IMG/VR virus record: IMGVR_UViG_3300032047_000122
Span: 1-24,778 of that record
Reading direction: 5' to 3' (one strand)
DNA length: 24,778 bases
From: a virus
Shown: piece after piece, positions 3,248 to 20,859 of the stretch
Position numbering within the stretch: the stretch's first letter is position 1
Layout of the letters: each line of letters starts with the position of its first letter
The notes under the pieces: generated by a model
The model's database searches: none
Seen by the model: only the letters and a program-made list of their open reading frames with translations
Told to the model about the DNA's origin: nothing
Program-made: the position numbers and the translations under genes

Positions 3248-3825
3248 TATAGTTCCCCTTTTTCGAAGTATGAAAACATTTTCTGTTTTCCCTCTTCATT
3301 CAGTTTTAATTGTTTTGCCAGTCTACCTAGCATATTTCTTTCTGCGAGTTTTTCGATTGTCTTTTCTGGTGTTTCAGTTGACTCGGGTATAGGTTTTACA
3401 CCTTGGTCTTTGAACATCTTCATTAACTGATTGTTTGTTGCTAGTTTGATTTTGCTATCTCTACCAAGTGCTTTTACAGTATTCATAAATCCCTTAGGAT
3501 TTTGTTTCTGCATTGCTTGAACAACTTTAACACCTGTCATGTTTAACATCTTAGCAACACCGTAACCCGCATCTTTATCGCCCTTTAGATTGAATAACTT
3601 ATCAATCATATCGCCAGCAGATGCTTCTAAAATTACGTCTTCGTCTAGGTTAACCTCTGTATCATCAGATACAGTCTTTTCATCGAATTCAGAATTGAGT
3701 AGGTTTTCAATTTCTTCATGTAGTGACTCTTCTTCAGATACAATCTTCGGTTCTACTACAGGTTTCTCCTGCATAGATTCTCGGACTGCCTGAAGACTTT
3801 CTTTCCAACTCTCTTGTTTACTCAT
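3247..3825 (-). CDS. Unknown acidic late protein
   Basis: 192 aa. The first 70 residues are acidic and probably disordered (SWKESLQAVRESMQEKP, then many Glu and Asp). The rest is helical, with two K/M/L-rich helical segments (RNMLGRLAKQLKLNEEG at the end). There is no Shine-Dalgarno next to the ATG. Instead a perfect T4-type late promoter TATAAATA ends exactly 6 nt before the ATG, which suggests a leaderless or nearly leaderless transcript. It is then the first gene of a late unit running down to the left edge. Family not recognised. Confidence 0.8.
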   Translation of the reverse strand: MSKQESWKESLQAVRESMQEKPVVEPKIVSEEESLHEEIENLLNSEFDEKTVSDDTEVNLDEDVILEASAGDMIDKLFNLKGDKDAGYGVAKMLNMTGVKVVQAMQKQNPKGFMNTVKALGRDSKIKLATNNQLMKMFKDQGVKPIPESTETPEKTIEKLAERNMLGRLAKQLKLNEEGKQKMFSYFEKGEL

Positions 3826-3831
3826 AATAGT

Positions 3832-3839
3832 TATTTATA
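3832..3839 (-). promoter_or_regulatory. T4-like late promoter TATAAATA
   Basis: Perfect match to the T4 late promoter -10 element TATAAATA (read by the gp55-type late sigma factor in T4). It overlaps the end of the upstream 98-aa gene, whose stop codon TAA (ATA TAA ATA) lies inside the element. With T4 geometry the start site would fall 1 nt before the ATG at 3825. Confidence 0.65.
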
Positions 3840-4131
3840 TTTCCTCAATACGCAGGACCAAATTATTAGACCCTTTTATTAGTCTATGGTACTCCATTTT
3901 CATTATAAAATAAGATTTTCCCACTTCCATGTACTCTGGCAACTTATCTTCTTTCTGTAATTGCCATCCCATGCCTTGTAGAACTGTAATTCTACGAGAT
4001 TTCTTATCTCTGTGCCAAATTAATTCATCACCATTGACTTGTTCATCAAATGTTCGAACAAAGTATCTTAAACCTGTTCCGTGTTGAATTTCTTCTTTAT
4101 CAGTGTAGGGTTTCTGTCGATCTTCTGACAT
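3835..4131 (-). CDS. Small cupin-like protein
   Basis: 98 aa; the ATG at 4131 has GAGG five nt upstream, overlapping the end of the 67-aa gene. The sequence reads like a minimal single-domain cupin: DELIWHRDKKSRRITVLQGM (first half, with W-H-R-D), then LPEYMEVGKSYFIMKMEYHR (second half, with the turn P-x-x-x-x-x-G and a late His), and ending in a beta strand NLVLRIEEI. Residues H39-H40-type positions are not all conserved, so metal binding is uncertain. Cupin folds in phages can be structural or enzymatic; nothing here decides which. The stop codon is embedded in the late promoter of the next gene. Confidence 0.75.
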   Translation of the reverse strand: MSEDRQKPYTDKEEIQHGTGLRYFVRTFDEQVNGDELIWHRDKKSRRITVLQGMGWQLQKEDKLPEYMEVGKSYFIMKMEYHRLIKGSNNLVLRIEEI

Positions 4132-4139
4132 ATTAACCT

Positions 4140-4343
4140 CTATGACACTTCTTTAATCAACAATGATACCCAGTTCTCTGCAACATTTTCTGCATAACTT
4201 TCTGAATGGGTATGAACCTCTACAGTTTTTTCAAATACATCATCTTGATATAAATCTACTTCATAACCTGCTTCGGTCTTGACTACAACACCAGATCTCT
4301 GGTTGTCATAGTACTCTGAAAGAATCTCTCTCTCACCTGCCAT
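4140..4343 (-). CDS. Small conserved phage protein, unknown function
   Basis: 67 aa with an AGGAG Shine-Dalgarno 7 nt before the ATG. The sequence is beta-strand-like in the first half (EILSEYYDNQRSGVVVKTEA, then a strand reading YEVDLYQDDVFEKTVEVH) and ends in a helix containing SESYAENVAENWV. The pattern H-S-E-x-x-A-E-N-x-A-E-N is, to my reading, typical of a small family in marine T4-like phages. No enzyme motif or membrane segment is seen. The upstream gap (4344-4371) contains a copy of the TAGTAACAGGAGTAT box that recurs in this window. Confidence 0.8.
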   Translation of the reverse strand: MAGEREILSEYYDNQRSGVVVKTEAGYEVDLYQDDVFEKTVEVHTHSESYAENVAENWVSLLIKEVS

Positions 4344-4371
4344 AATATACTCCTGTTACTAATATATAGTA

Positions 4372-4911
4372 CTACCAGAAGAATGATCCACCACCAGATA
4401 ACCCTAACTGTTTCGCATAGTAAGGGAGACGACATGCCCAATAACCTGGTTTGGTTTTATCATTTTTTGTAGAACATTGATGTCTTGCTACAAATGATTT
4501 TCTTGCTTCTGGATTGTTTAACTTAACTTTAAGTCCTGTTGTATCACCCCAAGAAACTTTCTTTACTTTCTTGGTCTGTGGGTCTCTGACATAGACGTAG
4601 TATTTTTTTGCACCACCAACTTTGGGTTTGTTTAATTCTACGTCCTTATCTTCTTCTTCTGAAATCATTGGACAATCGAGTGCGACAAGTTGTCCTTCAT
4701 GAACATCATATTCACCTAAGTCTGTTTCTATGATTTGCTTGTCAACTTCAGTAAGTCTATATTTACCTTCTTCGATTTGTTTTCTTGCTTCTTTAATGAC
4801 TTCAAAGTACATCATCGATCCAAGTCTGAATGGATTGTCTGTTAAGTTAGTATTAGACTCTTGTAAGTCTTCTAAGACTTGATCGATTGCTACTTCTTTT
4901 AGTGTCTTCAT
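4372..4911 (-). CDS. Late protein with C-terminal Cys/His-type basic domain
   Basis: 179 aa. The ATG overlaps the upstream stop as TAATG. The N-terminal 90 residues are helical and acidic (MKTLKEVAIDQVLEDLQESN onwards). Residues 98-179 form a distinct module: KKYYVYVRDPQTKKVKKVSW, then LNNPEARKSFVARHQC, then WACRLPYYAKQLGLSGG. The spaced H-x-C ... C residues (RHQC and WACR) suggest a small structural metal site or disulfide-free knuckle. From general knowledge this RKSFRARHxC ... YWxC module is found at the C-terminus of several unrelated late proteins in marine phages, sometimes attached to prohead proteins. The function is unknown. A head-assembly or packaging role is inference. Confidence 0.75.
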   Translation of the reverse strand: MKTLKEVAIDQVLEDLQESNTNLTDNPFRLGSMMYFEVIKEARKQIEEGKYRLTEVDKQIIETDLGEYDVHEGQLVALDCPMISEEEDKDVELNKPKVGGAKKYYVYVRDPQTKKVKKVSWGDTTGLKVKLNNPEARKSFVARHQCSTKNDKTKPGYWACRLPYYAKQLGLSGGGSFFW

Positions 4912-5624
4912 TATGATACTTTGGCCGCTAAATCTTTATCTGCACCACCCCAAGTTCCTTTTGACTTAGTTGCAAATGAATTTACTCTTGCCAATCCCCA
5001 TTGTGTTGGATTAGTTCCTGGTCTGTGACCTGTTCTCCAAGCGGCAACACCTCTGTCGAATACTTTCTTTAATATTCCATATGGCATACCAGACTTGTCT
5101 GCTTTTTTAGTGAGTGCTGTTTTGACACCACCTTCACCTTCGTCTAAATCTATTTCTAACTCTTCATGTGTAGAAGTCATATCAAGACCTTTAATCTTTC
5201 CTGCTAATGCTGATTGCATTTTTTGAAGTTGCTTCTCATCACCAGCAAAAGTGATTACTTCACCACTTTTAACTTTACCTTGACGTTTGACACTAAGACC
5301 TTTAAATTTTTTCATTGCATTTTGGGCAAGTTTAACATTCTTGTCGCCTCTAACTGTCAATACAAGATCGAGTTTTTCGTTCAAGTCACCAAATTCTTCA
5401 ACTGCTTCTTTTAGATGTACTTCAAACTCTTCGTTATATGGAAATCCTTTTAAAGGATTTTGAAACACTTGACTAAAATGTTTCTTAGAGTTTTGTTGTT
5501 GCACCTTTTGTGCTTCTCTAATTGCTTTGTCTACAATTTGACCTGGTGTATCACCTTTATATGAGTTTACAATCTCATCTGTGCCGATTTCATGAACTCC
5601 GTTATCGTTTTTATTACCTGACAT
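4911..5624 (-). CDS. DUF5824-like protein
   Basis: 237 aa; ATG with GAGGAG Shine-Dalgarno, overlapping the upstream stop as TAATG. The last 70 residues contain KADKSGMPYGILKKVFDRGV followed by AAWRTGHRPGTNPTQWGLAR and VNSF. This matches, as I remember it, the DUF5824 signature of phage and giant-virus proteins (Y-G-I-L-K ... A-W-R-x-G-H-R-P-G-x-x-x-x-Q-W-x-x-A-R-V). Residues 70-150 contain an alternating strand/helix segment (LDLVLTVRGDKNVKLAQNAM) that may be a ferredoxin-like fold. The N-terminal 50 residues look disordered. DUF5824 has no established function that I know of. Its invariant Arg, His and Trp residues could make an active or binding site, but I cannot say more. Confidence 0.75.
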   Translation of the reverse strand: MSGNKNDNGVHEIGTDEIVNSYKGDTPGQIVDKAIREAQKVQQQNSKKHFSQVFQNPLKGFPYNEEFEVHLKEAVEEFGDLNEKLDLVLTVRGDKNVKLAQNAMKKFKGLSVKRQGKVKSGEVITFAGDEKQLQKMQSALAGKIKGLDMTSTHEELEIDLDEGEGGVKTALTKKADKSGMPYGILKKVFDRGVAAWRTGHRPGTNPTQWGLARVNSFATKSKGTWGGADKDLAAKVS

Positions 5625-6442
5625 TATTTTTCTCCTCTTGCTCTTTCGAAATCACCAGGTTTTGGTGCTCCTTTAGATCCTGGTTTTCTCATGGGACGAC
5701 CTTCTTTTCTTTTCTTATGAATGTTTGCCCACAATGATTCTTTTTTTACTTCTTCTTTATCTTCACCCATAACGAGAGACGATAACTGATTTATTATAAT
5801 TGACAACTGTGTAGTATTCATTGTTGCCAATACTTGCATCTGATCTTTTGTAAGACCTTTAACTTTTTTCAATGCCTTTTTTATATCTACGTTTTCAGTC
5901 ACTTCTTCTGATTGACCAGCACGTGTAGAAATATTTAGTGAACTCTTAAGATATAAATGATTCTTATGTTTGTGTGACTTAGACACCTTTACACCTTTCA
6001 TATATCTTGCGATGTTATTCATCAATGTTATGCCTTCTTCTTCTGACTTCTGAAAGGTCTTACCTATGTTTGACTTTACCATACTTGTAAAAGCATTTAT
6101 AATTTCACTAGTTCCTGCTACATACTTACCTTCTTCTAATTCTCTGTGAATCATCAAGTCTTCTAAATCTGGCAATGAATCTTCGCCAAATTGTTTGTCA
6201 AACTTCTTAGTATGTTTAGAAGGTTTTGTTTTTGCAGTTGCATCTCCAGGAGCAGGTTTATATGCCGCTGGATTATCGTCATCTATTTTTGAATGCTTTT
6301 TGAAATGAGCATCTCTTTTATCTTTAGTTGACTTAGATAGACCCTTATAGTACACATCAGGTTGTGTCCCTGCTTTATCCTTAACGTCTGGGTCTTGTTT
6401 TACCCTACGTCTCTTTTCTAGTAATGTATCTATAATTGCCAT
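5624..6442 (-). CDS. Modular late protein with LSKSTKxKRDAHF and SLWANIHKKRKEG motifs
   Basis: 272 aa. Three regions stand out. Residues about 17-75 contain PDVYYKGLSKSTKDKRDAHF and DDDNPAAYKPAPGDATAKTK, a basic linker-like module that I recall from many marine phage proteins. The middle is helical and Lys-rich. The C-terminus (about 238-270) reads ESLWANIHKKRKEGRP and MRKPGSKGAPKPGDFERA, another short module that recurs at the ends of unrelated marine phage proteins. No catalytic site or membrane segment is visible. The upstream junction holds CATAAATA only 4 nt before the ATG and no proper Shine-Dalgarno. Probably a virion or assembly protein, with function unknown. Confidence 0.75.
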   Translation of the reverse strand: MAIIDTLLEKRRRVKQDPDVKDKAGTQPDVYYKGLSKSTKDKRDAHFKKHSKIDDDNPAAYKPAPGDATAKTKPSKHTKKFDKQFGEDSLPDLEDLMIHRELEEGKYVAGTSEIINAFTSMVKSNIGKTFQKSEEEGITLMNNIARYMKGVKVSKSHKHKNHLYLKSSLNISTRAGQSEEVTENVDIKKALKKVKGLTKDQMQVLATMNTTQLSIIINQLSSLVMGEDKEEVKKESLWANIHKKRKEGRPMRKPGSKGAPKPGDFERARGEK

Positions 6443-6445
6443 CTT

Positions 6446-7750
6446 CTATTTATGTTCCTGTGATTTATATAATAGTTCTTTTTCTCTCCATGCATTCGCA
6501 AGTTTATTACCAGGAAATTTACTTGACCACTGCATGAGTTTACTATAAAGTTTTGTTGCTTTTGCTTCTAACGTTTTTAGATCATCGTCATTTGATATCT
6601 CTACAAAATCTCTCTTAAAGATTTTTCTTAATGCGTTTGCGTTCTTCTGAGCATTTTCCCAGTCGCCTTGTACAATCTTTGCTGGTAACTTTCTGCTTCG
6701 CATTGAGTTACGTTTTTGAGCATTGTCTAATGATGCATTAACAAATATCATTTTAGATTCATAACCCAATTTGTCTAACATCTTTTTATAGTCTTCAACT
6801 TTTTTGATGTTAGCAGAAGTGGTGTCAAATATCATTCCGAGTCTACCTCTGATGTATGAATCCATATTTTTAGTTGTAATACTCTTTGCTTTAGCACGAA
6901 TAGGATCTACTTTACTGAAGTCTGCACCTCTAAGATCGAGTGACATACCTGCTTTCTTAAGTCCGTTTTCAAATGCTTTGTCTGTGTTAACAAGTTTAAG
7001 TCCTAATGCTTTGAGTGATAACTTATCTACAACTGTTGATTTACCAGAACCTGGACCACCAGAAAAGAATACTGCTTTGAATGTGCCTGGGTCATATACA
7101 CCTTCAGTAATCAATTCTTCTAACATGTATTCGGGCATGGTGTTACCTTCCATAATACCCATACCTTTTCGAATATCGTTGTATAGTTTTTCTGCGAAGT
7201 TTTTACCAGTTCTTGGAACTCCATTTTTAAACTCTTCGAAGTTTCCATCTTCTGCATATTGTCTCATTTTAGATGCTGACATTCCTGAAACGTCATCGGA
7301 ATCTGGGTCACGTTCACCAGCACTAACTATGTTTATATCATCGAACTTATAGAAACCATGTCTTGCTTTGACTGAGTTATACTTCTTAATGAGATTGTCG
7401 AATTCTCTAATTCTATCTGACCCTACAACCATAGTCACTGAAGTGTACCCTTGCTTGTACAATTCATTACAGATATCAAATACTGTTCTTGCGTTTGTGT
7501 TTGGTACTGCGACTTGTTTGCCAAAGAACTTCTTTAAATAGTTCTGCTTTTGTTTAAATGTTAATGGGTTCTTCTTCTTATCGTTAGAGTGTGATGAAAA
7601 AAGAATCGGTACACCTCCAACTGATTTAGACACCTTCTGTAATCTATCTACTAACTTTGCGTGACCAGTTGTGGGTGGATTAAATCTACCAAATGTGAAT
7701 ACTGCTGGTTTCTTTTTTGCTTCTCTTAAAAATGTATCGAAAGACTTCAC
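6446..7750 (-). CDS. Nucleotidyltransferase / P-loop kinase fusion, NadR-like architecture
   Basis: 434 aa. The start is a GTG at 7750, with GGAG 8 nt upstream; it overlaps the previous stop as GTGA. Residues 1-11 (MKSFDTFLREA) resemble the T4 capsid-targeting sequence. Residues 16-200 form a cytidylyltransferase-type Rossmann domain: GRFNPPTTGH at 21-30 (HxGH-like, here T-x-G-H), MVVGSDR at 108-113 and a late GMSASKMR at 156-163 (ISxTxxR-like). Residues 226-434 form a P-loop kinase with Walker A GPGSGKST at 232-239, then a Walker-B-like strand (LGMIFDTT). An NMN adenylyltransferase domain followed by a ribosylnicotinamide kinase is the order in NadR, so NAD salvage is a reasonable guess. Other nucleotide-transfer or end-repair roles remain possible. 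Both domains look intact. Confidence 0.75.
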   Translation of the reverse strand: MKSFDTFLREAKKKPAVFTFGRFNPPTTGHAKLVDRLQKVSKSVGGVPILFSSHSNDKKKNPLTFKQKQNYLKKFFGKQVAVPNTNARTVFDICNELYKQGYTSVTMVVGSDRIREFDNLIKKYNSVKARHGFYKFDDINIVSAGERDPDSDDVSGMSASKMRQYAEDGNFEEFKNGVPRTGKNFAEKLYNDIRKGMGIMEGNTMPEYMLEELITEGVYDPGTFKAVFFSGGPGSGKSTVVDKLSLKALGLKLVNTDKAFENGLKKAGMSLDLRGADFSKVDPIRAKAKSITTKNMDSYIRGRLGMIFDTTSANIKKVEDYKKMLDKLGYESKMIFVNASLDNAQKRNSMRSRKLPAKIVQGDWENAQKNANALRKIFKRDFVEISNDDDLKTLEAKATKLYSKLMQWSSKFPGNKLANAWREKELLYKSQEHK

Positions 7751-8136
7751 TTCTTCATCTCCAATCCAGACTTGACTGGTTTCTTTCTTTTCTTTGTTAA
7801 TTCTTTTTGTCTGACTTTAGGTAATAGTTTCTTTGCAATCTTGGCGATCACTGCTTGTTTCTTTGCAAGTCTTTTCTCTATATCTTTTTTAAGACCTATT
7901 CCTAAATCTGCTTTATCTTTATTTTTGATAATCTTTTTAATTAGAATATTACGTGCTTGTTTTCTGGCACGATTCATAAGTTTTTTCGGGTCGATGATGA
8001 CTCTTTTTGCGGCCTTCTTTCTTGCTCTTAAGATTTTGTTTTTGTTTTTCCTAAAGGAAGCACGTTTCTTCATACGAGTTTGTAGTGAATCTACCTCGTG
8101 TAAATCTGTTTCGCAAAATTCTTTAAAACTCTTCAT
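7747..8136 (-). CDS. Very basic capsid-internal-like protein
   Basis: 129 aa, about 40 percent Lys plus Arg by eye, with almost no aromatic residues. It begins MKSFKEFCETDLHEV, a capsid-targeting-like start (MK-S/T-aromatic-x-E-aromatic-x-x-E), and continues with repeated basic helices (RMKKRASFRKNKNKILRARK, KKLMNRARKQARNIL, KKDIEKRLAKKQAVIAKIAK). T4 internal proteins IPI-IPIII are likewise small, basic and carry this kind of N-terminus, which the prohead protease removes before DNA packaging. The ATG overlaps the upstream stop as TAATG, and its own stop overlaps the next GTG. Similar basic proteins are, from memory, widespread in marine T4-like phages. A nucleic-acid-binding internal head protein is the best guess, not proven. 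Confidence 0.75.
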   Translation of the reverse strand: MKSFKEFCETDLHEVDSLQTRMKKRASFRKNKNKILRARKKAAKRVIIDPKKLMNRARKQARNILIKKIIKNKDKADLGIGLKKDIEKRLAKKQAVIAKIAKKLLPKVRQKELTKKRKKPVKSGLEMKK

Positions 8137-9347
8137 TACTTATTCCAATTTTTTGCTACTGTAAAGTTATTTAGTGAGAATTCCATACGATCTACCAGTT
8201 TTACTGCTTTACCTTGCTGATCAATAGCAACATAACCTTCTGGGTTTACAACCTTATACCCTCTGTCTGTTTGTGCAAATGTGCCAATAGACTTAACTCT
8301 ATTCAATGCATCTACAATAATCTTTTTAGAATCGATTAGACCTTTCTGAAAATCTGTAAGTGCTGTAATACATTTCTTTAGTCTACGTAACTCTGAAAGT
8401 GATTGTTGTTTAATTTCTTCTTTAATTTGTTTTGTTTTTTCCATCTTGACTTTAGCAATTATCTTTTCGTCAAAATATTTTTCGACATACTTTAAATAAT
8501 CTGGATATGACGGATCAAATTTGCCTGCTCTTATCTTCGAGTTAACATATGTTTTATAGTTGGCACCTACTGCCGATTTACTGCCAAACATATCCATAAT
8601 CTTCTGAAAACTTTGCAGGTCTTTCTTTGTGATATTTCTAAAGGTCTTTCCAACGTTTGTCAAGTGTCTTGACAATGCTACAGATTCTTTGGCAGTCATG
8701 GATCCATTACCACTTACGTCTCTGTAAGTAGCATCATCTATCCACACATCTTTATTATGACCTAGTGATGAGATATCTGCACCAAATTTTGCAGACAAAT
8801 CTGCAAGTGTAGAACCTGTATATGTTGTATGAAATACTATACCGTATTTTGCTTGATCGATTGCATTACCAAGTGGTGATCCTTGTAATGCGGCATATAG
8901 TATTGTGTTAGGTTGAAATGTGATATAATCTAACTCACCAATCTTTGTGTTTTTCTTATCTGATGAAGTGAACATTAAGTCACCTTGAAGTATTTTATCA
9001 CCCCACGATAACTTAGATAGATATCTAAATGACTGTAAAAACTTGTCCTCGAGATCACCAGAGAGTTCTGGTGCATCTTTAATCTGTTGTTCAGACGTAT
9101 AGTGTAGTTGTTTCTTAGTAAAGAGAGACTTCTTAGCAACAAAAAAGTTACCAGTCTCGGGATGTTTCCCTGCCCATATAGCAGGAGCACCGTCCCACTT
9201 CACTGTCATATTTACTCTTTTCTTTGAGTGACCTTTGAGCATGTTACGAAGTTCTAAAAGAAAATAGATAGAGGCACGACCACCATCAATTCCGTTATTG
9301 ATGATTTCGTCTTCTAAATGCTCTAAGTGTAAGTTCTGAACTGCCAT
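8136..9347 (-). CDS. KxDG-motif protein, possible ligase-fold nucleotidyltransferase (DUF6267-like)
   Basis: 403 aa. Residues 47-60 read MTVKWDGAPAIWAG; K50-W-D52-G53 fits the KxDG motif I where covalent nucleotidyltransferases (DNA/RNA ligases, capping enzymes) take up AMP or GMP. Further along, ILQGDLMF (119-126) sits where motif III (xxGExx) would be, and AKYGIVFHTTY (167-176) resembles motif IV (DGIVxK-like). The motif V Lys-x-Lys is not obvious. I recall the family as DUF6267, without known activity. The gene follows a 59-nt gap that holds CATAAATA (9384-9391) and a TTACTAACAGGAATAT box; the ATG itself has no strong Shine-Dalgarno. It opens the long late run to the left. An RNA or DNA ligase-like role is inference from motifs. 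Confidence 0.7.
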   Translation of the reverse strand: MAVQNLHLEHLEDEIINNGIDGGRASIYFLLELRNMLKGHSKKRVNMTVKWDGAPAIWAGKHPETGNFFVAKKSLFTKKQLHYTSEQQIKDAPELSGDLEDKFLQSFRYLSKLSWGDKILQGDLMFTSSDKKNTKIGELDYITFQPNTILYAALQGSPLGNAIDQAKYGIVFHTTYTGSTLADLSAKFGADISSLGHNKDVWIDDATYRDVSGNGSMTAKESVALSRHLTNVGKTFRNITKKDLQSFQKIMDMFGSKSAVGANYKTYVNSKIRAGKFDPSYPDYLKYVEKYFDEKIIAKVKMEKTKQIKEEIKQQSLSELRRLKKCITALTDFQKGLIDSKKIIVDALNRVKSIGTFAQTDRGYKVVNPEGYVAIDQQGKAVKLVDRMEFSLNNFTVAKNWNK

Positions 9348-9383
9348 AGTAGTATTTTAACATATTCCTGTTAGTAATACTAC

Positions 9384-9391
9384 TATTTATG
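9384..9391 (-). promoter_or_regulatory. Late-promoter-like element CATAAATA
   Basis: Matches NATAAATA, the relaxed form of the T4 late promoter in marine T4-like phages. It lies 36 nt upstream of the ATG at 9347 and is followed by a TTACTAACAGGAATAT box. The predicted start near 9378 would give a leader of about 31 nt. Confidence 0.45.
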
Positions 9392-9406
9392 CTATTTTAT
9401 TTCTGT

Positions 9407-9814: not shown

Positions 9815-9844
9815 TAGTCCTCCGACTTTTTAATACAATACTAT

Positions 9845-10018
9845 TTAGTTTTTTGAGAGTGGGGACGACGACAATTTCTCAGAAATTTGAGAAATTTTTT
9901 GATTTAATATTTCTGCTTGGCGATCTCTGTTCTCTTCTTTTGCCAATTTTAAATCTTTCTTTAGTTGTACTTTCTGACTAATTAACTGTATAACTTCTGT
10001 TGGTTTTAAATTCTTCAT
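9845..10018 (-). CDS. 57-aa coiled-coil protein coupled to the lipoprotein gene
   Basis: Short gene of 58 codons including stop. The ATG at 10018 overlaps the stop of the large lipoprotein gene as TGATG, so it is probably translated by re-initiation. The product starts MKNLKPTEVIQLISQKVQLK and is almost entirely a charged helix with heptad-like spacing of Leu and Ile (ISQKVQLKKDLKLAK, ILNQKISQISEKL). It has no membrane segment or signal. A partner or regulator of the lipoprotein is possible from the coupling alone. An inverted repeat in the 3' part of the gene (TTTCTC ... GAGAAA) may be incidental to the ISQISEK coding. Confidence 0.6.
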   Translation of the reverse strand: MKNLKPTEVIQLISQKVQLKKDLKLAKEENRDRQAEILNQKISQISEKLSSSPLSKN

Positions 10019-11463
10019 CACATATTATTTGAACAAACATCGTATGCCTCATTGCCTGTCCAAACCTCTCCTGTCGATACATTCTGACATGTTTGTTCTT
10101 GACCAGAGTTATTCTGCTCATGGTACCTCCATGGGTCATTTGATATCCAGTGTGCATCACTATCAAATAACATGTATCTATTGTTTGTAATGTTATTTAT
10201 GTCAACATTTAGGTCTTGCATTTCAAGATATAAACTTTCTAATGTGTATTCATTTAGACTCGATGCTAGTTGCTCTATGTCATAATCTAAGTATGTATTA
10301 GATGAATTTATTATACTGAGTGTGTAACCTTGTATTAGACCAACGTGAAACCTTCTTTCAACTGGCGTTTGTACGTATCGTGTAATGTTGATGTTTTCAA
10401 ATGTGCCAAATTCAATTGCATTCTCACCATCTACCATATCAAAGATTACTTTTATGTCATTAAAGATTGCTTCTTTACTCTCAATCTTGCCTGAAATATG
10501 TAAGTTTCCGTATTGATTTAGATTTTCTAAAGTGATTGCATATTCTTCGCCTTCAGAATTGATTAATGTTCCGTTCTCTGTTGCTGTAAGATTGAGATAG
10601 TTTCTCTCTGTATAGTATACCCACGTATCATCTTCTGAGAAGTCTGTGGAGTTATTGATATCGAATGTGATAGTAGTGAACTCTTCATCATTCATAATCG
10701 CATTCCATAACTCATAGTCAATTGGTGCATGAAAGTCTGTGCCATAATTGACACTGAGTAACTCACCCACTTTATAGATAGTGGTCATGAAGTCTACAAT
10801 TCTTTCACCCTGTCTCTGTAATACTGCATCGCCACTTGCAATGTAATCATCATAGAATGTAAATATGTCTCTATTCCATTGATTAGAGAGTTGGTCGACT
10901 ACTTCTTGTATCTCTGAGATAACATTCAGTGCTATTTGATCTGCTAATGTACCACACGAATCACTAACTGATATGTTATTGCCTGTTGTATAATCTGTAA
11001 CGAATGATGCAAACAGACTTGTGAATGGTGTAACGTTTGCTTGTTCAACTTCTGAGTCGTATTCGTAAGGATAATACATCATAGTATATGCATTCTCTAC
11101 GTACCCTCTATCTGAATCATAAGCACCTACGGGAACCTCTGCGATTCTAGGTCTATTATAAAAGCAACTTGAAGTAAAGTTATCTATCTCAGAAAACTGG
11201 TCAGACTCCCAATAATAAATTTCGTTTACAGTGTCTTCGTAAGCATAGGGTTCACCAGGATCTTTAGTTAGATTCCAATTCATATCAACGAAGACGTTAG
11301 CACCACTAACATAACCATCGATTACTTTAGTTGTACCAATATTTGTTGACGTTTGTACGGGTGGTGTAATTGTTTGAATCTCTAGTGCAAGAGGAGTTAC
11401 TGAACCCCCACCACCACATGCTGTAAGTAGCATGACACCAGATATCAATATAGCATTTCTCAT
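10018..11463 (-). CDS. Large secreted lipoprotein of bacterial type
   Basis: 481 aa from the ATG at 11463. A start five codons upstream (TTG) is less likely because it lies in the -10 element. Residues 1-16 (MRNAILISGVMLLTAC) are a lipoprotein signal peptide with lipobox LTAC; Cys16 is the acylated residue. The following GGGGS suggests outer-membrane sorting (no Asp at +2). The mature part begins with a Thr-rich linker, then VIDGYVSGANVFVDMNWNLT, a motif like that in bacterial surface proteins (GYLSGAxVFLDLNxNG), and ends in a Cys pair region (EQTCQNVSTGEVW ... YDVCSNNM). No catalytic site was recognised. It has its own sigma70-like promoter and no Shine-Dalgarno. It may modify the infected cell surface, block superinfection or be captured host DNA; I cannot decide. 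Confidence 0.8.
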   Translation of the reverse strand: MRNAILISGVMLLTACGGGGSVTPLALEIQTITPPVQTSTNIGTTKVIDGYVSGANVFVDMNWNLTKDPGEPYAYEDTVNEIYYWESDQFSEIDNFTSSCFYNRPRIAEVPVGAYDSDRGYVENAYTMMYYPYEYDSEVEQANVTPFTSLFASFVTDYTTGNNISVSDSCGTLADQIALNVISEIQEVVDQLSNQWNRDIFTFYDDYIASGDAVLQRQGERIVDFMTTIYKVGELLSVNYGTDFHAPIDYELWNAIMNDEEFTTITFDINNSTDFSEDDTWVYYTERNYLNLTATENGTLINSEGEEYAITLENLNQYGNLHISGKIESKEAIFNDIKVIFDMVDGENAIEFGTFENINITRYVQTPVERRFHVGLIQGYTLSIINSSNTYLDYDIEQLASSLNEYTLESLYLEMQDLNVDINNITNNRYMLFDSDAHWISNDPWRYHEQNNSGQEQTCQNVSTGEVWTGNEAYDVCSNNM

Positions 11464-11469
11464 ACGAAC

Positions 11470-11499
11470 ATTATACAATAATAATGAGTATGTTGTCTA
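11470..11499 (-). promoter_or_regulatory. sigma70-like promoter giving a leaderless lipoprotein mRNA
   Basis: TAGACA (11494-11499), an 18-nt spacer and a perfect TATAAT (11470-11475). The ATG at 11463 starts exactly 6 nt after the -10 element, where transcription would normally begin, and no Shine-Dalgarno exists. The first three bases of the -35 are the TAG stop codon of the upstream gene. An A-tract followed by CCCTC precedes the -35, as at the other early-type promoters here. Confidence 0.65.
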
Positions 11500-11973
11500 G
11501 AGGGTTTTTAGTATTGGAACTTGAATGAAGGGATTAGATAGTTCTTCTATTTTATCGTTTACATCAAATGCAATTGTGATTCTTTTCTCTGTAAACTTCG
11601 TGTTTGATACGACTCTATGTTTAAGATTGCCTGGACCTATATACATGCTACCGACTTCATTCTCTATTTTTCCATCTTTGAATTCAGTTACAGTATCGTG
11701 TGGTCTTATACTGAGATACCCATGAAATAAAGACTGGTGATCATGCCAGTCTAGTAGTTCATCTTCTGAGTGATAATTAATCCATGCTTTTACAAAGATT
11801 GTTTCTGAATCACCCTCATAGTACTCACATATGATTGATAAGAGTTCATCGAATACTACGTTATAATGTGGTAGACCTCTTAAGAGTGTGATTGCATTAT
11901 ACTTCATATAATGTGCTGTAGAACCCTTGAAGTCATTGTCTGACTCTTTAAAATAGGGTGCATAGAATTTCAT
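11497..11973 (-). CDS. 2OG-Fe(II) oxygenase-like protein (double-stranded beta-helix)
   Basis: 158 aa from the ATG at 11973. A longer reading frame runs into the tRNA-Ser gene and is rejected. The segment WHDHQSLFHGYLSI (76-89) supplies a candidate proximal metal motif (H77-x-H79; the classical form is HxD/E). YIGPGNLKHRVVSN (111-124) supplies a distal His119, and R131 in KRITIAFD lies 12 residues later, where the 2-oxoglutarate-binding Arg sits. Together these suggest a cupin/2OG-oxygenase fold of the kind common in marine T4-like phages. The unusual H-x-H and the small size leave room for a non-catalytic protein. No clear Shine-Dalgarno precedes the start. The substrate is unknown. Confidence 0.6.
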   Translation of the reverse strand: MKFYAPYFKESDNDFKGSTAHYMKYNAITLLRGLPHYNVVFDELLSIICEYYEGDSETIFVKAWINYHSEDELLDWHDHQSLFHGYLSIRPHDTVTEFKDGKIENEVGSMYIGPGNLKHRVVSNTKFTEKRITIAFDVNDKIEELSNPFIQVPILKTL

Positions 11974-12038
11974 CAAGTTATCAACGTGTCTACCCAAGAT
12001 ATCATGATGTTCTTCAACACTTTTTAATTTGTAAAGTC

Positions 12039-12128
12039 TGGCGGAGAGGGAGGGATTCGAACCCTCGATACGATCTCTCGTATGCTGGTTTTCAAGACCA
12101 GTGCGTTCAACCACTCTGCCACCTCTCC
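12039..12128 (-). tRNA. tRNA-Ser(UGA)
   Basis: Full cloverleaf: acceptor GGAGAGG pairs with CCTCTCC, followed by an encoded GCCA end. The anticodon arm is CTGGT-CTTGAAA-ACCAG with anticodon TGA at 12092-12094. The long variable arm ATACGA-GAGA-TCGTAT is the class II (Ser) signature, and the T arm is GAGGG-TTCGAAT-CCCTC. It reads UCA codons, which are frequent in AT-rich genomes. Its 5' 22 nt overlap the 3' end of the neighbouring small gene. Confidence 0.95.
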
Positions 12129-12295
12129 TGTTCTATCTTTTTCAAAACTTTATTATATCCTGCAAGTTCACCATATAACTGTCCTCTAATATGATCTGGT
12201 ATATCTTTGACTGTTGTATGGCCTTGTAATTTCCTTAAAATAACTTTTTTCTGTACATGAATGTATTCAATTAGGTCTGTCATATCAGGTTTCAT
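12107..12295 (-). CDS. Small conserved protein between two tRNA genes
   Basis: 62 aa from the ATG at 12295, chosen because GAGG lies 6 nt upstream; an in-frame ATG at 12307 has no such site. The product is basic and helical (MTDLIEYIHVQKKVILRKLQ, then DIPDHIRGQLYGELAGYNKV) and reads as a real protein with conserved-looking residues. I recall similar short proteins in marine T4-like phages but cannot name a function. The last 22 nt, including the stop TGA, lie in the 5' acceptor and D-arm region of tRNA-Ser. The two products therefore share sequence. Confidence 0.65.
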   Translation of the reverse strand: MKPDMTDLIEYIHVQKKVILRKLQGHTTVKDIPDHIRGQLYGELAGYNKVLKKIEQERWQSG

Positions 12296-12311
12296 TTTTT
12301 GCCTCATAAAT

Positions 12312-12387
12312 TGGCGTCCCTGCTAGGACTCGAACCTAGAATAGAAGTTTAGAAGACTACTGTGATATCCTGTTTCACCACAGGGAC
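12312..12387 (-). tRNA. tRNA-Arg(UCU)
   Basis: 76 nt. Acceptor GTCCCTG pairs with CAGGGAC, with encoded GCCA. The D stem is GTGA/TCAC. The anticodon arm is GTAGT-CTTCTAA-ACTTC with anticodon TCT; one U-U mismatch lies in the anticodon stem. The T arm is CTAGG-TTCGAGT-CCTAG. It would read AGA, the favoured Arg codon in AT-rich genes. It lies 10 nt downstream of the helicase stop, so it may be cut out of the helicase transcript. Confidence 0.93.
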
Positions 12388-12397
12388 AATTAAATTG

Positions 12398-13783: not shown

Positions 13784-14786
13784 ATTTAAAATATTCTTGT
13801 ACTACCTTTTCTAATTGTTCCATCACATCTTCTGTGAAGTATTTTTCTGGGTTGTTGTTGATAGTTTTCCCAAATTCTGTTTTACCATTAGGTAATTTAA
13901 CTCTTGTTGATGCTTTCTCAAATACACCTGATGCAAGTGCTAAGTCTAGTAAACCATAGTATCTGTCGAGTCCTTTATCATATGATAATCTGACATCGAC
14001 GATTCTGTTCTCTACAGTCAATCTTGATTTTGCATTCTTACAGTGTATAATATTTCCTACAACTTCACTACCCTCTTTTTCTTTTTTCTTTGAAAGATAT
14101 ACGATTGAAGATGCGGCGTACTTAAGACCAGACCCTCCACCCATTTCTTTCTGTGGGAACATTGAACCAATTACATCGTAAGTATGATTTGTTACAATCA
14201 TTGGAACACCTGCTCTACCGAGTTTAAGTGTAAGAACTCTGAAAGCACCTTTAACTAATTGGGAACGAGTCATGTCTCTAGTTTCTTTACCATCTGCTGT
14301 GTCTTCGATCTCTTTGGTAGTAGATAACATGCCAAGAGAATCTAAACAAAACATCATTGGTGGACGTTTTGACTCGTCTGTTTCAAGATACTTATCAAGT
14401 ATGGATATTGCCTGTGTTCTGAATTCTTGAACTGTTACCACGGGCACAATAACAATTCTGTTTGAATCGATACCTCTTTCTTCAATCATTTCTTTTGTGA
14501 TTGCAGATTCAGATTCGAAATAAATTACTGCTGAATCTGGATTATCAGCAAGAAACTGTTTAACCATTCCTAATGCAAAGAATGTTTTACCAGTTGCTGA
14601 TTCACCTGCGATTGCAGTAATTTTGTTTTTTGGAAGTCCACCATATAGTGAACCCGATAATAAAGCATTAAAGATGTAACTACCCGAATCGACGAATGAG
14701 TCAACATCACCTGCTTGAACACCATCTGCAACGATGTTCGCAAACTCGTTACCTGATGCTTTTACTAAGTCTTTAATAAATGACAT
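13734..14786 (-). CDS. uvsX: RecA-like recombinase UvsX
   Basis: 350 aa from the ATG at 14786, chosen because GAGAGG lies 5 nt upstream; a GTG two codons earlier is in frame but less likely. It forms filaments on single-stranded DNA and drives strand exchange and recombination-dependent replication in T4. Walker A is GESATGKT at 61-68. The Walker B/L1 regions ([39 protein letters not shown]) and the TNHTYDVIG and [20 protein letters not shown] segments match T4 UvsX closely. It is a little shorter than T4 UvsX (391 aa), with a shorter acidic C-tail (NNTEESDSE). It has its own promoter just upstream and overlaps the helicase gene by 50 nt. Confidence 0.95.
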
Positions 14787-14810
14787 ATTCACCTCTCATA
14801 ATGTATATTC

Positions 14811-14839
14811 AGTATACTATGTAGTGAGTTATTTGTCTA
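14811..14839 (-). promoter_or_regulatory. sigma70-like promoter of uvsX
   Basis: TAGACA (14834-14839), a 17-nt spacer and TATACT (14811-14816). GAAAAAACAC immediately precedes the -35, giving an UP-element-like A-tract. The leader would be about 18 nt and contain the GAGAGG Shine-Dalgarno. It also contains an 8-codon mini-ORF (ATG at 14799) that overlaps the uvsX start in another frame. The -35 lies within the end of the small membrane protein gene. Confidence 0.6.
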
Positions 14840-15011
14840 GTGTTTTTTCTGGATTATCTTCAAATGTTTTATCGCACAAACGTGTACGATACATTGTGTG
14901 TTCTTTCATCATTTCTGATAAAATTTTTAATTGAGTTTCAATATGAACTATGAAACCGAAAATGACACAGATCATACATATGTAAAATATGTCCATGCCT
15001 GTAATCATCAT
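14829..15011 (-). CDS. Small single-pass membrane protein
   Basis: 60 aa. One hydrophobic segment at residues 7-23 (DIFYICMICVIFGFIVHI) is followed by a charged helix (QLKILSEMMKEHTMYRTRL) and an acidic end. Its ATG overlaps the nuclease stop as ATGA (two consecutive ATGs; the second may be used). Orientation is probably N-in, with the tail in the periplasm or cytoplasm depending on the charges. No family was recognised. It sits between nuclease and uvsX, in the T4 region that holds imm (superinfection immunity), so a membrane role in exclusion is a guess. A spanin-like role is also possible, but 60 aa is short. Confidence 0.7.
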   Translation of the reverse strand: MMITGMDIFYICMICVIFGFIVHIETQLKILSEMMKEHTMYRTRLCDKTFEDNPEKTLDK

Positions 15012-15448
15012 AACTCTACTACACCTTTCTCTAAAAGAATATCTCTATTCGTAAGATGATTGTTTGCTATGTCTTCTTTGGATTGCCCATCGTATGGAAC
15101 TGCATGATTATCTTCAATCATTTGTGCATTGGCACAAAACTTTGTTTCGTATGTTGGATGTCCGACATTGTCCCAACAATATAAGTCACCTAAGATTCTT
15201 CCGAACTTGCCTTTGTCATGTGATACAAGTGTGATTTTTTCACAAGCACCTAACATTTCTTTTAGATGTTTCTTTGATGCCTTTCCGAATTTCTTTTCTA
15301 CTAAGTCTCTAGTTCTGGATTCTGGTGTATCAATACCTTTCATTCTGACTCTTTGCTTTTTATAAGTCATACCAAAACCGAGATCGATGTCTACGTCTAC
15401 TGTATCACCGTCAACTATCTTAACTACTTTTACGTTATATTCATACAT
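15008..15448 (-). CDS. Staphylococcal-nuclease-like (SNase/TNase) protein
   Basis: 146 aa. Expected Ca2+-dependent endonuclease. Residues IVDGDTVDVDIDLGFG (11-26) give the beta-strand with D13. RVRMKGIDTPESR (33-45) gives R35, D40, T41 and E43, the same numbers as in the classical nuclease, and KFGRILGDLY (81-90) supplies R84 in place of R87. All catalytic residues are therefore present. No signal peptide is seen, so it acts in the host cytoplasm, for example in host DNA breakdown or recombination. No Shine-Dalgarno precedes the ATG. TATAAATA sits 11 nt upstream, and an overlapping AATAAATA ends 7 nt before the ATG. It overlaps the next gene by 4 nt. Confidence 0.85.
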   Translation of the reverse strand: MYEYNVKVVKIVDGDTVDVDIDLGFGMTYKKQRVRMKGIDTPESRTRDLVEKKFGKASKKHLKEMLGACEKITLVSHDKGKFGRILGDLYCWDNVGHPTYETKFCANAQMIEDNHAVPYDGQSKEDIANNHLTNRDILLEKGVVEL

Positions 15449-15459
15449 AATGTTTTATT

Positions 15460-15467
15460 TATTTATA
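15460..15467 (-). promoter_or_regulatory. T4-like late promoter TATAAATA of the nuclease gene
   Basis: Perfect T4 late consensus, overlapping a second AATAAATA shifted by 4 nt (15456-15463). It lies directly downstream of the CAAGGGGAC hairpin, giving a hairpin-then-promoter boundary. The transcript would have only a few leader bases before the ATG at 15448. Confidence 0.6.
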
Positions 15468-15470
15468 ATG

Positions 15471-15494
15471 CAAGGGGACTCATTTGTCCCCTTG
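15471..15494 (-). other. Strong hairpin, possible terminator or processing site
   Basis: Perfect 9-bp inverted repeat CAAGGGGAC ... GTCCCCTTG with a 6-nt loop. On the minus strand it is followed by GCATTATAAATA, not a U-run, so a canonical intrinsic terminator is not shown. It ends the lipoprotein unit and abuts the late promoter. Its GGGGAC/GTCCCC core repeats in the terminator at 20249-20264. Confidence 0.6.
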
Positions 15495-15560
15495 TCTAAC
15501 TGTTGCCTTACATTTTTGTGGAAACTCTGAGCAATATAACATCATTGCTTCTAAAAGCAT
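15480..15560 (-). CDS. Possible 26-aa peptide
   Basis: ATG at 15560 to TGA at 15480, product beginning MLLEAMMLYCSEFPQKCKAT. It is too short for firm support. A GAGG lies about 15 nt upstream, too far for a good ribosome site. The Met/Leu/Cys content and the position right after the lipoprotein gene make it plausible that it is a real small gene. The stop lies in the hairpin stem-loop. It could equally be untranslated leader sequence. Confidence 0.3.
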   Translation of the reverse strand: MLLEAMMLYCSEFPQKCKATVRQGDK

Positions 15561-15580
15561 TGTGGTCGAAATGACCTCGT

Positions 15581-15853
15581 CTACTTTTTTTCAGGTTGTT
15601 CCTGTAGTTCATTAGTTTGTCTATCGACTTCATCTGCTACAGTGTCTATAACACCTGTAGTAGTATCTGCGACTAGAGTACCAACTGAGACTACATCATC
15701 TGCAACGGCGTTTACAACTGTTTGAGTACCTTTAACGGCACCGTCTACAACGCCAGTTGAGAATTCTTTTCCGCCTTCAATTACGGCACCAACTGAGGCA
15801 CATGAAGGAAGTAAGAATACACAAAATAGTAATGAATACATTAAATTATTCAT
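15581..15853 (-). CDS. Small lipoprotein
   Basis: 90 aa with AGGAG 8 nt before the ATG. Residues 1-18 (MNNLMYSLLFCVFLLPSC) are a lipoprotein signal with lipobox LPSC; Cys18 would be acylated, and Ala-Ser follow, so outer-membrane sorting is expected. The mature 72 residues are a regular pattern of small and Val residues (EGGKEFSTGVVDGAVKGTQT, then VADDVVSVGTLVADTTTGVI) with an 11-residue-like spacing. This suggests an amphipathic helical surface, as in small envelope lipoproteins. The C-terminus is charged (NELQEQPEKK). Its place between polymerase and uvsX, where T4 has imm, suggests superinfection exclusion. An outer-membrane spanin is the alternative. Neither is shown. Confidence 0.75.
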   Translation of the reverse strand: MNNLMYSLLFCVFLLPSCASVGAVIEGGKEFSTGVVDGAVKGTQTVVNAVADDVVSVGTLVADTTTGVIDTVADEVDRQTNELQEQPEKK

Positions 15854-15882
15854 TGCTGACTCCTAAATAGAAGTTCTAAACT

Positions 15883-15900
15883 GATAGATAAAAATCTATC
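15883..15900 (-). other. Stem-loop in the leader of the small lipoprotein gene
   Basis: Inverted repeat GATAGAT-TTTT-ATCTATC, a 7-bp stem with a 4-nt loop. It lies between the CATAAATA element and the AGGAG of the lipoprotein gene. It is AT-rich and could be a weak attenuator or an RNA-stability element. Confidence 0.45.
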
Positions 15901-15907
15901 CCCACTG

Positions 15908-15915
15908 TATTTATG
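15908..15915 (-). promoter_or_regulatory. Late-promoter-like CATAAATA over the polymerase stop
   Basis: NATAAATA element whose TAA is the polymerase stop codon (GCA TAA ATA). It precedes the small lipoprotein gene by 54 nt, giving a leader that includes the stem-loop and an AGGAG. Confidence 0.5.
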
Positions 15916-18427
15916 CAAAAAAACTATCTAATGATGCAACTGGTTCTACATTCCAATTAATCAGATTAACTACAGTCTTCAAAGGTTCTACAAATGATTT
16001 GTCGAACTGCATATCATAATCTACGAATCTATGTAAATCAAACTCTCTGGGTAAAGAATTCATAAAACTAATAACATTCTCATTGATTGGATTAGGTGTA
16101 GTTAGATAAGTAAACAGAATCTTCTCACCATTTTTGATTGTTTCATACCTCATGTCGAGGTTCTTGGATTCTAACAAATGATTATATAATAACGAACCTC
16201 GAACATGAATTGGTGTACCCTTTGCATAGATTGTAGTGTTGTCTTTGTATTGACCTAGACCCCTACACCCTCTAGGGAATGCTACAGTCTCGGGTGGTAA
16301 CTCTCTAAATTCTTTTCGTGCTTTCTCTACAAACTGCCACAAGTCTTGCTCTGTCTGAGTCATGATAACATTGAATGCTTCAGTAAGTTTGGTTCTTACC
16401 CATTGTGGTGTTGACGACTTAGCAGTTTCAATACCCATCATTTTGAGTTTTGGTTTTGCTAGTCTAACACCCTCATTGTCAAATACATTTAGAATGTATC
16501 TTTTCTTTGCAGTCCATATACCACGATCTGCAATCACTTCTCTACCCATTTCCATTTTGTTTTGAAATGCATTTGTATAATCTGCTAACTCTTTGAAACC
16601 ATCAGCAAGTGCATTCTCTACCTGCTTCTCTGCTTTAGATAGAAAGTCTACAATCTTATTCTTATCTTGTTCATCAGGCATAACTGCTTGTACAAGTTTA
16701 TCCATTGTAATGTAAACTGAATCAGTGTCCATTGCAATCACATAGTCTTCGTTATCAGTTTTAAGAATCTTGTTAAGATAATCATTAACAGTTCTCTCTG
16801 CCCACTTAATGACTAACTGACCAGACATAGTAATTGCTTCTGCAAGATCGATAGAAAAGAATGCGAAGTATTGATTTGCCATTGCACCATAGGCAGAGTT
16901 CAATGCAATCTTACGAACTTGCTGATTGTTATATGCACGTTTGATAAGTGTATCAAGTTCTCTCTTACGTTTTGGATCAGTGCATGTTTCTTTTTCTTTT
17001 TGAAACACAATCATTTTCTTTTTCCATTCTTTACGTTCTTCATAGAATGTTTCCATAAGTTCTGGGAACATACCTTGTTTCTCACGTGAGAATAGAACAC
17101 CATTAGGTGCTATCGTTGTATTTGTTTGCTTACAGTATGATGTGTCTGTTTGTTTATCAAGTAACTTCTGAATGTTTGTTGTTTCTCTATGACCAGGCAC
17201 AATCTTCTCAGGTGAGATATTGTATTGCATAATCAAATGTGGATATAGTGAGTTCAAGTCAAAAGACATAACCCAATTATGACCACCAACTTGAGGTTCT
17301 TTTACATATGCACCAATGATAGGTTTAGTTTTATCATTGCCAGTTTTCAATCTTTGTGGTGGGGTTTGTATACCTTGGTCTTTTAAGAAATTATAGATGA
17401 TAGTTTCCCAGTACTTCACCATACCAAATGTATCTTTGTAGTTACATTTGGCAGTATATGCCTGAGACATAATAAGTTCTAAGAAACCTAGTTTGTCGTC
17501 TAGTTCTTCTACGAGAACAACATCACGTACATTATACTCTAAGAACTTTGCATAGTCGTTCTTATATAATGTATGAAGTGAACCATACTCTGAGTAATCT
17601 ATCTTACCTTTGCCAAGTTCTACTTGTGAAATGTGATCGAGTTTATACGACTCTTGGTTTGAGAAAGTTCTTTTACGATACAGTTCGAGGTAGTCAACAA
17701 CATTGATACCAAGTAAATCATACACTTGTTGTTTCTGATAACCAAATGCTGTAAACTCTCTACTACTTGATTGATTCCATGGTGATAGTTTTCTATGTTC
17801 ATTCTCACCAAAAAGTCTATCGATTCTATTACAAAGGTATGTGATATCGAATGAGTCTACATTCCAACCTGTGATAACATCAAAGTTCTGACTACGCCAA
17901 TACTTTATGAACTGAGTAAGTAAGTCTGCTTCATTCTTACAATCGATATAGATTACTTTAGGATTGTCATGATTCCATGGACCAATACCAAAAACTACTG
18001 TTTCTTTTTTGAATGGTTTAATTGAAATAGCATTAACTCTTTCACCTGCTAACATTGGATCTGGAAATCCATTCTCACATTCACATTCTATATCGAGTGT
18101 TGCGATTCTAATCTTATTGAAGTCCCAGTCGATCTCGCCTTGAAACTTGTCTGAGATATAGGTGTAAACATATCTATCATAACCATGTATCTCAAACCCT
18201 TGAACACCATCGTACTGCTCTCTAAACTTTCTAGCACCACCCATAGAGTTGAGTTCAACAACTTCTAAGTATCTGCCATCTAGTGAACGATAAGGTGTTT
18301 GACCTTTCTTTGAGGGAATGAAATGCTTCGGTCGATAGTTGACCGTAAGTTTCTGTTTCTTGTTTCCTTGATAACCCGTGACCAAAATCTTGTCACGTGT
18401 ACGACACACATTTGTATAAAAATCCAT
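15911..18427 (-). CDS. 43: DNA polymerase, family B (T4 gp43 type)
   Basis: 838 aa (T4 gp43 is 898). Replicative polymerase with 3'-5' proofreading. Exo I is DIECE with D112 and E114, the T4 numbering; Exo II is NVDSFDITYL at 189-198; Exo III is YNVRD with D302. Pol motif A is SFDLNSLYPHLI with D390, motif B is KIALNSAYGAMAN from about 506, and motif C is AMDTDSVYI with D567 and D569. The C-terminus ends SLDSFFA, a likely clamp-binding (PIP-like) peptide as in gp43. All catalytic residues are intact, with no insertion or intein. The ATG has no Shine-Dalgarno and directly follows a hairpin and a TATACT box, so control at initiation is likely. Autogenous repression is known for T4 gp43. Confidence 0.97.
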   Translation of the reverse strand: MDFYTNVCRTRDKILVTGYQGNKKQKLTVNYRPKHFIPSKKGQTPYRSLDGRYLEVVELNSMGGARKFREQYDGVQGFEIHGYDRYVYTYISDKFQGEIDWDFNKIRIATLDIECECENGFPDPMLAGERVNAISIKPFKKETVVFGIGPWNHDNPKVIYIDCKNEADLLTQFIKYWRSQNFDVITGWNVDSFDITYLCNRIDRLFGENEHRKLSPWNQSSSREFTAFGYQKQQVYDLLGINVVDYLELYRKRTFSNQESYKLDHISQVELGKGKIDYSEYGSLHTLYKNDYAKFLEYNVRDVVLVEELDDKLGFLELIMSQAYTAKCNYKDTFGMVKYWETIIYNFLKDQGIQTPPQRLKTGNDKTKPIIGAYVKEPQVGGHNWVMSFDLNSLYPHLIMQYNISPEKIVPGHRETTNIQKLLDKQTDTSYCKQTNTTIAPNGVLFSREKQGMFPELMETFYEERKEWKKKMIVFQKEKETCTDPKRKRELDTLIKRAYNNQQVRKIALNSAYGAMANQYFAFFSIDLAEAITMSGQLVIKWAERTVNDYLNKILKTDNEDYVIAMDTDSVYITMDKLVQAVMPDEQDKNKIVDFLSKAEKQVENALADGFKELADYTNAFQNKMEMGREVIADRGIWTAKKRYILNVFDNEGVRLAKPKLKMMGIETAKSSTPQWVRTKLTEAFNVIMTQTEQDLWQFVEKARKEFRELPPETVAFPRGCRGLGQYKDNTTIYAKGTPIHVRGSLLYNHLLESKNLDMRYETIKNGEKILFTYLTTPNPINENVISFMNSLPREFDLHRFVDYDMQFDKSFVEPLKTVVNLINWNVEPVASLDSFFA

Positions 18428-18428
18428 A

Positions 18429-18443
18429 CTGTTAGTATAACAG
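18429..18443 (-). promoter_or_regulatory. Hairpin / -10 element abutting the polymerase start codon
   Basis: Inverted repeat CTGTT-ATACT-AACAG (5-bp stem, 5-nt loop) ending 1 nt before the ATG. It may be an RNA operator; T4 gp43 represses its own mRNA by binding a hairpin at its ribosome site. The same bases contain TATACT (18434-18439), exactly 6 nt before the ATG, which would make a leaderless mRNA. No good -35 is seen for it. Confidence 0.5.
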
Positions 18444-20789: not shown

Positions 20790-20813
20790 AATGTTTCTCC
20801 TAATTATCAATAG

Positions 20814-20850: not shown

Positions 20851-20859
20851 TAGGGTTTT

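Follow-up and report, generated by a model that had tools for sequence, protein, structure and literature searches.

Promoters at fixed distances from start codons predict a leaderless class of messages in marine T4-like phages

Can a phage gene that has no ribosome-binding site, and whose promoter ends a few nucleotides (nt) before its ATG, be expressed from a messenger RNA (mRNA) without any leader? The question is raised by an IMG/VR viral contig, IMGVR_UViG_3300032047_000122, whose positions 1 to 24,778 we analyzed (the 24,778-base window). The contig derives from an uncultivated marine T4-like phage and carries a replication set of the T4-like kind, with DNA polymerase gp43, UvsX, and a gp41-type helicase. 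An original prediction, made from the window alone, singled out four starts: a putative lipoprotein gene (TATAAT-GTTCGT-ATG, start codon at 11463), the DNA polymerase gene (TATACT-AACAGT-ATG, 18427), a gene at 3825 (TATAAATA-ACTATT-ATG), and a nuclease gene (AATAAATA followed by 7 nt, 15448). It proposed that they belong to a class of leaderless phage messages covering both sigma70-like and late promoters. All the quoted sequences are present, and none of the four starts has a Shine-Dalgarno (SD) sequence at the normal distance. The statement that most other genes have AGGAG-like sites did not hold, as a clear SD is found in only about half of the other genes of the window. Because degenerate TATAAATA matches occur in the window at chance frequency (52 found versus 53.2 expected), the four cases alone are weak evidence. 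The window phage is a member of an uncultivated marine T4-like lineage; its gp43 is less than 60% identical to all phage records of the annotated collection (best ∼47%, to cyanophages), and pattern matching recovered at least 598 polymerase relatives from the viral collection. In relatives the pattern exceeds chance by far.

Promoter spacing across the lineage

Genome-wide statistics were computed on four relative contigs of 106–151 kilobases (kb), and upstream sequences were compared over a set of 2203 unique regions. The first ATG of a frame was taken as its start codon, and an SD was scored within 4–17 nt of the start codon; the search covered ATG starts, and all class members described here begin with ATG. 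Searching relatives for a fixed distance between promoter and ATG, the check that had been proposed for the prediction, gave single-nucleotide peaks at 6 nt for sigma70-type boxes and at 5 nt for late boxes, and the −10 elements proved to be conserved. Over these regions, TATAAT is most frequent at 6 nt (54 occurrences versus 0–10 at most distances), as is TATACT (28), whereas the late box NATAAATA has its peak at 5 nt (138 versus 0–6 at most distances); TTGACA peaks at 29–30 nt, and control words gave no comparable peaks. Distances from box to ATG in the four contigs show two humps, a narrow one at the ATG and a wide one, of leadered genes, at ∼20–40 nt.

The pattern is also evident when gene calls are set aside. 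In the four contigs, an ATG stands at offset 5 after 31 of 175 NATAAATA sites, compared to 3.5 expected (p=3e-20), and at offset 6 after 30 of 516 −35/−10 pairs, compared to 10.3 expected (p=3e-7). Taking one random gene per family, a late box lies at 5–8 nt in 13.4 families, against 0.3 in dinucleotide shuffles. Moreover, genes of the class have lost the SD: it is found in 7 of 311, as opposed to 151 of 283 genes with a promoter 20–40 nt upstream.

What do these two distances mean? The T4 late box spans positions −13 to −6, its first base being −13 (PMC2988020), and a 5-nt gap thus puts the transcription start (+1) on the A of the ATG. A sigma70-type −10 hexamer that ends 6 nt 5′ of the ATG likewise puts +1 on that A; Zheng et al. 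(2011; PMC3160421) use this geometry, a TA-box ∼12 bp upstream of the start, to identify leaderless genes. The two independent peaks, at 5 and 6 nt, therefore each match the zero-leader value for their own type of box. This coincidence, an argument from promoter geometry, is the strongest one for predicting leaderless mRNAs. The original prediction had the distances right but conflated the two box types under a shared 6-nt spacing; as zero leader corresponds to 5 nt for a late box, the gene at 3825, at 6 nt, would carry a 1-nt leader. Its proposal of a class spanning sigma70-like and late promoters is supported by both peaks and by the loss of the SD, with the leaderless state deduced from the geometry.

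We consider it very probable that ∼6%–11% of the genes of the lineage are transcribed from promoters of these two kinds that place +1 either on the start codon's A or 1–3 nt from it. Box conservation, exact spacing, SD loss, retention in divergent orthologs, and absence from the other T4-like phages tested are observed; from them we infer where the 5′ ends lie and how ribosomes enter. Sigma70-type host promoters (−35, TATAAT, 6 nt, ATG) would serve replication and regulatory genes, such as those for gp43, gp55, and primase, and T4-type late boxes (NATAAATA, 5 nt, ATG) would serve virion genes, such as those for portal, gp25, tail-fiber assembly, and gp2. A ribosome, most likely in its 70S form, would then start on the 5′-terminal AUG, as it must on an mRNA without an SD leader.

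Genes of the predicted class

The sigma70-type members are gp43, the late sigma factor gp55, primase, one gene for the ribosomal protein bS21, and DUF6267; the late-type members include the portal gp20, the baseplate wedge gp25, a tail-fiber assembly protein, and the DNA end protector gp2, among others. On the sigma70 side, −35 elements accompany the −10 boxes as TTGACA in the polymerase relatives and as TAGACA-18-TATAAT at the lipoprotein gene. The gp55 gene has TATAAT or TATTAT 6 nt before its ATG in seven of seven lineage contigs, and a gp55 homolog (phrog_234) occurs in nine of 10 records (seven of eight relative contigs, HTVC008M, and Melnitz; the window fragment was outside this search). 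On the late side, NATAAATA is found exactly at 3825 and 15448, and also in relatives, consistent with the predicted late promoters. The gp25 and tail-fiber assembly genes have box-N5-ATG in all four genomes, whereas in HTVC008M and/or Melnitz an SD leader separates the same late box from the gene; a leader can thus appear or disappear between a given box and its gene.

One case in the window is the family B DNA polymerase gp43 (15911..18427, minus strand, as are all features of the window given below; phrog_262, E=0), with a predicted leaderless start at 18427. A TG-extended −10 element (TGT-TATACT, hexamer at 18434..18439) lies 6 nt ahead of the ATG. Among the polymerase relatives with upstream sequence, 79 of 79 have a −10-like hexamer at the same 6 nt, most have TTGACA at 17–18 bp from it, and none has an SD ahead of the ATG. 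The −35 is part of the final codons (TTG ACA GAA TAG) of the gene upstream. An inverted repeat, CTGTTA-TAC-TAACAG (18429..18443), spans the −10 and the discriminator, and its arms change together between clades (TGTAGT/ACTACA, ACTGTA/TACAGT); its score is 12.48, compared to 10.97 ± 0.26 with swapped discriminators, a difference inflated by related sequences. Next to it, a perfect 14-bp palindrome, AAAGACTAGTCTTT (18444–18457), covers the stop codon of gp43's upstream neighbor.

A fifth case, overlooked at first, is the start at 9347 of the DUF6267 gene (8136..9347; PF19782, E=8e-94). Here a −10-like element (TGT-TAAAAT, hexamer at 9354..9359) stands 6 nt ahead of the ATG (TAAAAT-ACTACT-ATG), and a late box, CATAAATA (9384..9391), 36 nt ahead of it is conserved in relatives. 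A −10-like hexamer, mostly TATAAT or TATACT, lies 6–8 nt 5′ of the ATG in 53 of 84 relatives. Between late box and ATG there is a conserved hairpin, AGTAGTATT...AATACTACT (9348..9384), whose 5′ arm shares bases with the discriminator and the end of the late box and whose 3′ arm contains the −10-like element; the inverted repeat was present in 45 of 45 variants folded, with co-variation of the arms judged by eye. We rejected a simple 5′ leader hairpin, as most of the 5′ arm precedes the predicted late +1 and the full stem thus cannot form in the late transcript. A head-tail adaptor gene (L306:1248-2063, minus strand) also has a longer hairpin between late box and ATG, with its arms arranged in the same way relative to the late box, the discriminator, and a −10-like element. 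The repeats at gp43, DUF6267, and the adaptor could be DNA operators, or they could form hairpins in readthrough RNA that would silence the start codon unless the leaderless promoter is used.

The gene at 3825 (3247..3825) is a conserved phage gene with no assigned function, predicted to be leaderless or to have a 1-nt leader. Its T4-type late box, TATAAATA (3832..3839), 6 nt ahead of the ATG, holds the stop codon of the upstream gene, and an AGGA nearby is 16 nt away, within that gene and not at normal SD distance. We found 68 related loci; nearly all orthologs with an alignable start have T/CATAAATA 5–8 nt 5′ of the ATG, in differing upstream contexts. The putative lipoprotein gene (10018..11463), with a signal/lipobox-like N-terminus (MRNAILISGVMLLTACGG) and no Pfam or PHROG match for its product, has a predicted leaderless start at 11463, with TATAAT at 11470..11475, 6 nt ahead of the ATG, and the −35-like TAGACA at 11494..11499, which is conserved in L225, L041, and L232. 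The spacing is kept in its one close relative (88% identical) and in some of a handful of distant ones. The SNase-like nuclease gene (15008..15448; PF00565) is a short-leader candidate: the box cited for it, AATAAATA (15456..15463), is indeed at 7 nt, but an overlapping full TATAAATA (15460..15467), 11 nt ahead of the ATG and predicting a leader of ∼6 nt, had been missed. Membership in the class is thus uneven, solid for the polymerase, the gene at 3825, and most DUF6267 orthologs (at 6–8 nt), and mixed for the nuclease, whose family has a box at 5–8 nt in 28 of 91 members.

Alternative explanations of the spacing

Several points weigh against the leaderless interpretation. All 5′ ends given here are predictions from sequence, the p-values above assume independent sites although some are orthologous, and the excess of the sigma70-type box is modest (9.0 families versus 2.5 in shuffles, with a maximum of 7). 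The window's own gp43 promoter has no good −35, unlike that of most relatives. Some members have predicted leaders of 1–3 nt (the 3825 orthologs at 6–8 nt), and the inverted repeats adjoin the ATG at the polymerase and DUF6267 genes, so that RNA containing them could also matter. One may ask whether these messages carry leaders of 1–8 nt and are initiated by another SD-independent route. The distances of 6–8 nt in 3825 orthologs and DUF6267 relatives, and of 7 or 11 nt at the window nuclease, would fit, but for each box type the main peak coincides exactly with its zero-leader spacing, and we regard this alternative as unlikely. Unlikely, too, is that the promoters are real and yet the translated mRNAs have leaders from starts further upstream, the sequence adjoining the ATG, especially at gp43, being a translational RNA operator hairpin. 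T4 gp43 represses translation of its own mRNA, a co-varying repeat adjoins the gp43 ATG here, and a longer conserved one is found at DUF6267. This would leave unexplained, however, why TTGACA lies at 17–18 bp, why unrelated virion genes have exactly 5 nt after their late boxes, why gp55 and primase share the promoter spacing, and why the SD is lost; also, the stem position and loop size of the gp43 repeat shift between clades. A readthrough RNA with the hairpin and a leaderless RNA could both exist together.

The two remaining alternatives fare worse. Since starts were called as the first ATG per frame, the true start codons might be further downstream, with ordinary leaders on the mRNAs. We find this highly improbable, as the first ATG and the N-terminus are conserved (MDFYTN for gp43 in nearly all relatives, MELFGFE or MEIFGFE for gp20 in four of four genomes, and MAIIANL in four of four), and the offset test is independent of gene calls. 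Finally, the spacing could have arisen by chance, or because the sequence is AT-rich and genes are preceded by stop codons (TAA in TATAAATA): the window has a GC content of 33%–40%, degenerate boxes are at chance level in it, and the box at 3825 contains the upstream stop codon. We rejected this explanation, to which we give practically no credence, because it is contradicted by the gene-call-free and the family-level shuffle tests, that is, by single-nucleotide peaks relative to other offsets and to shuffles. The box also stays in several families although the stop-codon context differs. The GC content of T4 (35%) is the same, yet no such peak is seen there, and base composition is therefore not the cause.

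Distribution, precedents, and phage bS21

Among other T4-like phages, the late class is present in the Pelagibacter phage HTVC008M (nine of 45 sites, p=1.6e-7; 11 genes), where the sigma70 class was not found, and it is weak in Melnitz (four of 42 sites, p=0.011). The box-N5-ATG genes of HTVC008M include homologs of gp25 (31132–31575) and gp2 (18392–18916). Both this phage and its host are in culture, which makes the late class directly testable there. No leaderless late class was found in T4, Syn9, KVP40, AG-345-L05, phiM12, or Cr30. As phiM12 infects Sinorhizobium and Cr30 Caulobacter, a simple explanation by alphaproteobacterial hosts was rejected. Inheritance from the host was rejected as well: 400 kb of a SAR86 genome showed no excess in the gene-call-free test, and by gene calls TATAAT or TATACT lies at 6 nt in just five of 439. 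The nearest bacterial relatives of a NifU/IscU-like gene of the window (24095–24523) come from SAR86 (66% identity), a hint of a SAR86 host. In 35 of 45 relatives of this gene NATAAATA lies mostly 5–6 nt ahead of the ATG, although not in the window.

T4 late transcription is a textbook system, with messages that carry SD leaders. The lineage shares with it the same 8-bp box (TATAAATA) and a gp55 homolog (PMC2988020), but in T4, as in Syn9, KVP40, and AG-345-L05, the late box is 9–50 nt from the called ATG and never 5–8 nt. One oceanic branch of T4's relatives seems to have dropped the leader from core genes, including those for polymerase, late sigma, primase, portal, and gp25. This sets up a natural comparison within one superfamily, between leadered and leaderless versions of a gene with one and the same box, in which one can ask what a virus gains by leaderless initiation and whether phage bS21 takes part. 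Gene callers or promoter surveys that depend on an SD can misplace such starts.

Leaderless phage mRNA has a classic example in lambda cI, transcribed from PRM, a sigma70 promoter with its −10 ∼12 nt ahead of the AUG. In lambda, a temperate phage, this concerns one regulatory gene, whereas the class predicted here is genome-wide and includes virion and replication genes. Lambda is cited as the founding leaderless case in Zheng et al. (PMC3160421), whose TA-led genes, in which TANNNT ∼12 bp upstream replaces the SD, have the sigma70-type geometry seen here; they are described for bacterial and archaeal genomes, and the part of that paper considered here does not mention T4-type late boxes. The lytic Thermus thermophilus phage phiYS40 has leaderless middle and late mRNAs (PMC3594737), a whole transcript class as in our sequence-based prediction, but it is unrelated, and its host commonly has leaderless genes; here a T4-superfamily phage would use sigma70-type and gp55-type promoters for a minority of its genes. 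Leaderless mRNA is thus known, also as a phage-wide class, and what appears to be new is the use of two promoter systems at single-base precision in T4-like phages. Our literature search, whose coverage left out most subscription journals, found no account of leaderless mRNAs in T4-like phages or pelagiphages.

Could leaderless starts be part of a translation program? The ribosomal protein bS21 adjoins the anti-Shine-Dalgarno sequence. A bS21 gene (PF01165) is present in five of eight larger lineage contigs, in HTVC008M, and in Melnitz, and was searched for and absent in T4, Syn9, KVP40, AG-345-L05, phiM12, Cr30, and phiM9. These seven phages include all six that lack the leaderless late class (phiM9 was outside the leaderless test), an association from few related genomes that is suggestive only. 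In one genome the bS21 gene (L308:8632-8865, minus strand; G001 68632-68865) has its own TATAAT 6 nt ahead of the ATG. Phage bS21 is already known, and that of HTVC008M enters Escherichia coli ribosomes (PMC6375957). That phage bS21 shifts ribosomes from SD-led to 5′-AUG-led messages is a tentative idea, which we think doubtful. A program of the phiYS40 type would involve a change in the levels of initiation factors IF2 and IF3 in favor of leaderless mRNAs; no IF3 C-terminal domain was found in the 10 records searched for a phage-encoded IF3.

Two further features of the window were noted. A transfer RNA gene, tRNA-Ser (12039–12128), overlaps the 5′ part of an open frame (11497–12114), whose true start is therefore probably downstream of 12114. 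Peroxiredoxin and HSP20 genes (20271–21267) each have an ordinary SD leader. A search with the phage peroxiredoxin, for host assignment, gave no relatives; the gene is preceded by a sigma70 promoter with the inverted repeat ATACTCC...GGGAGTAT.

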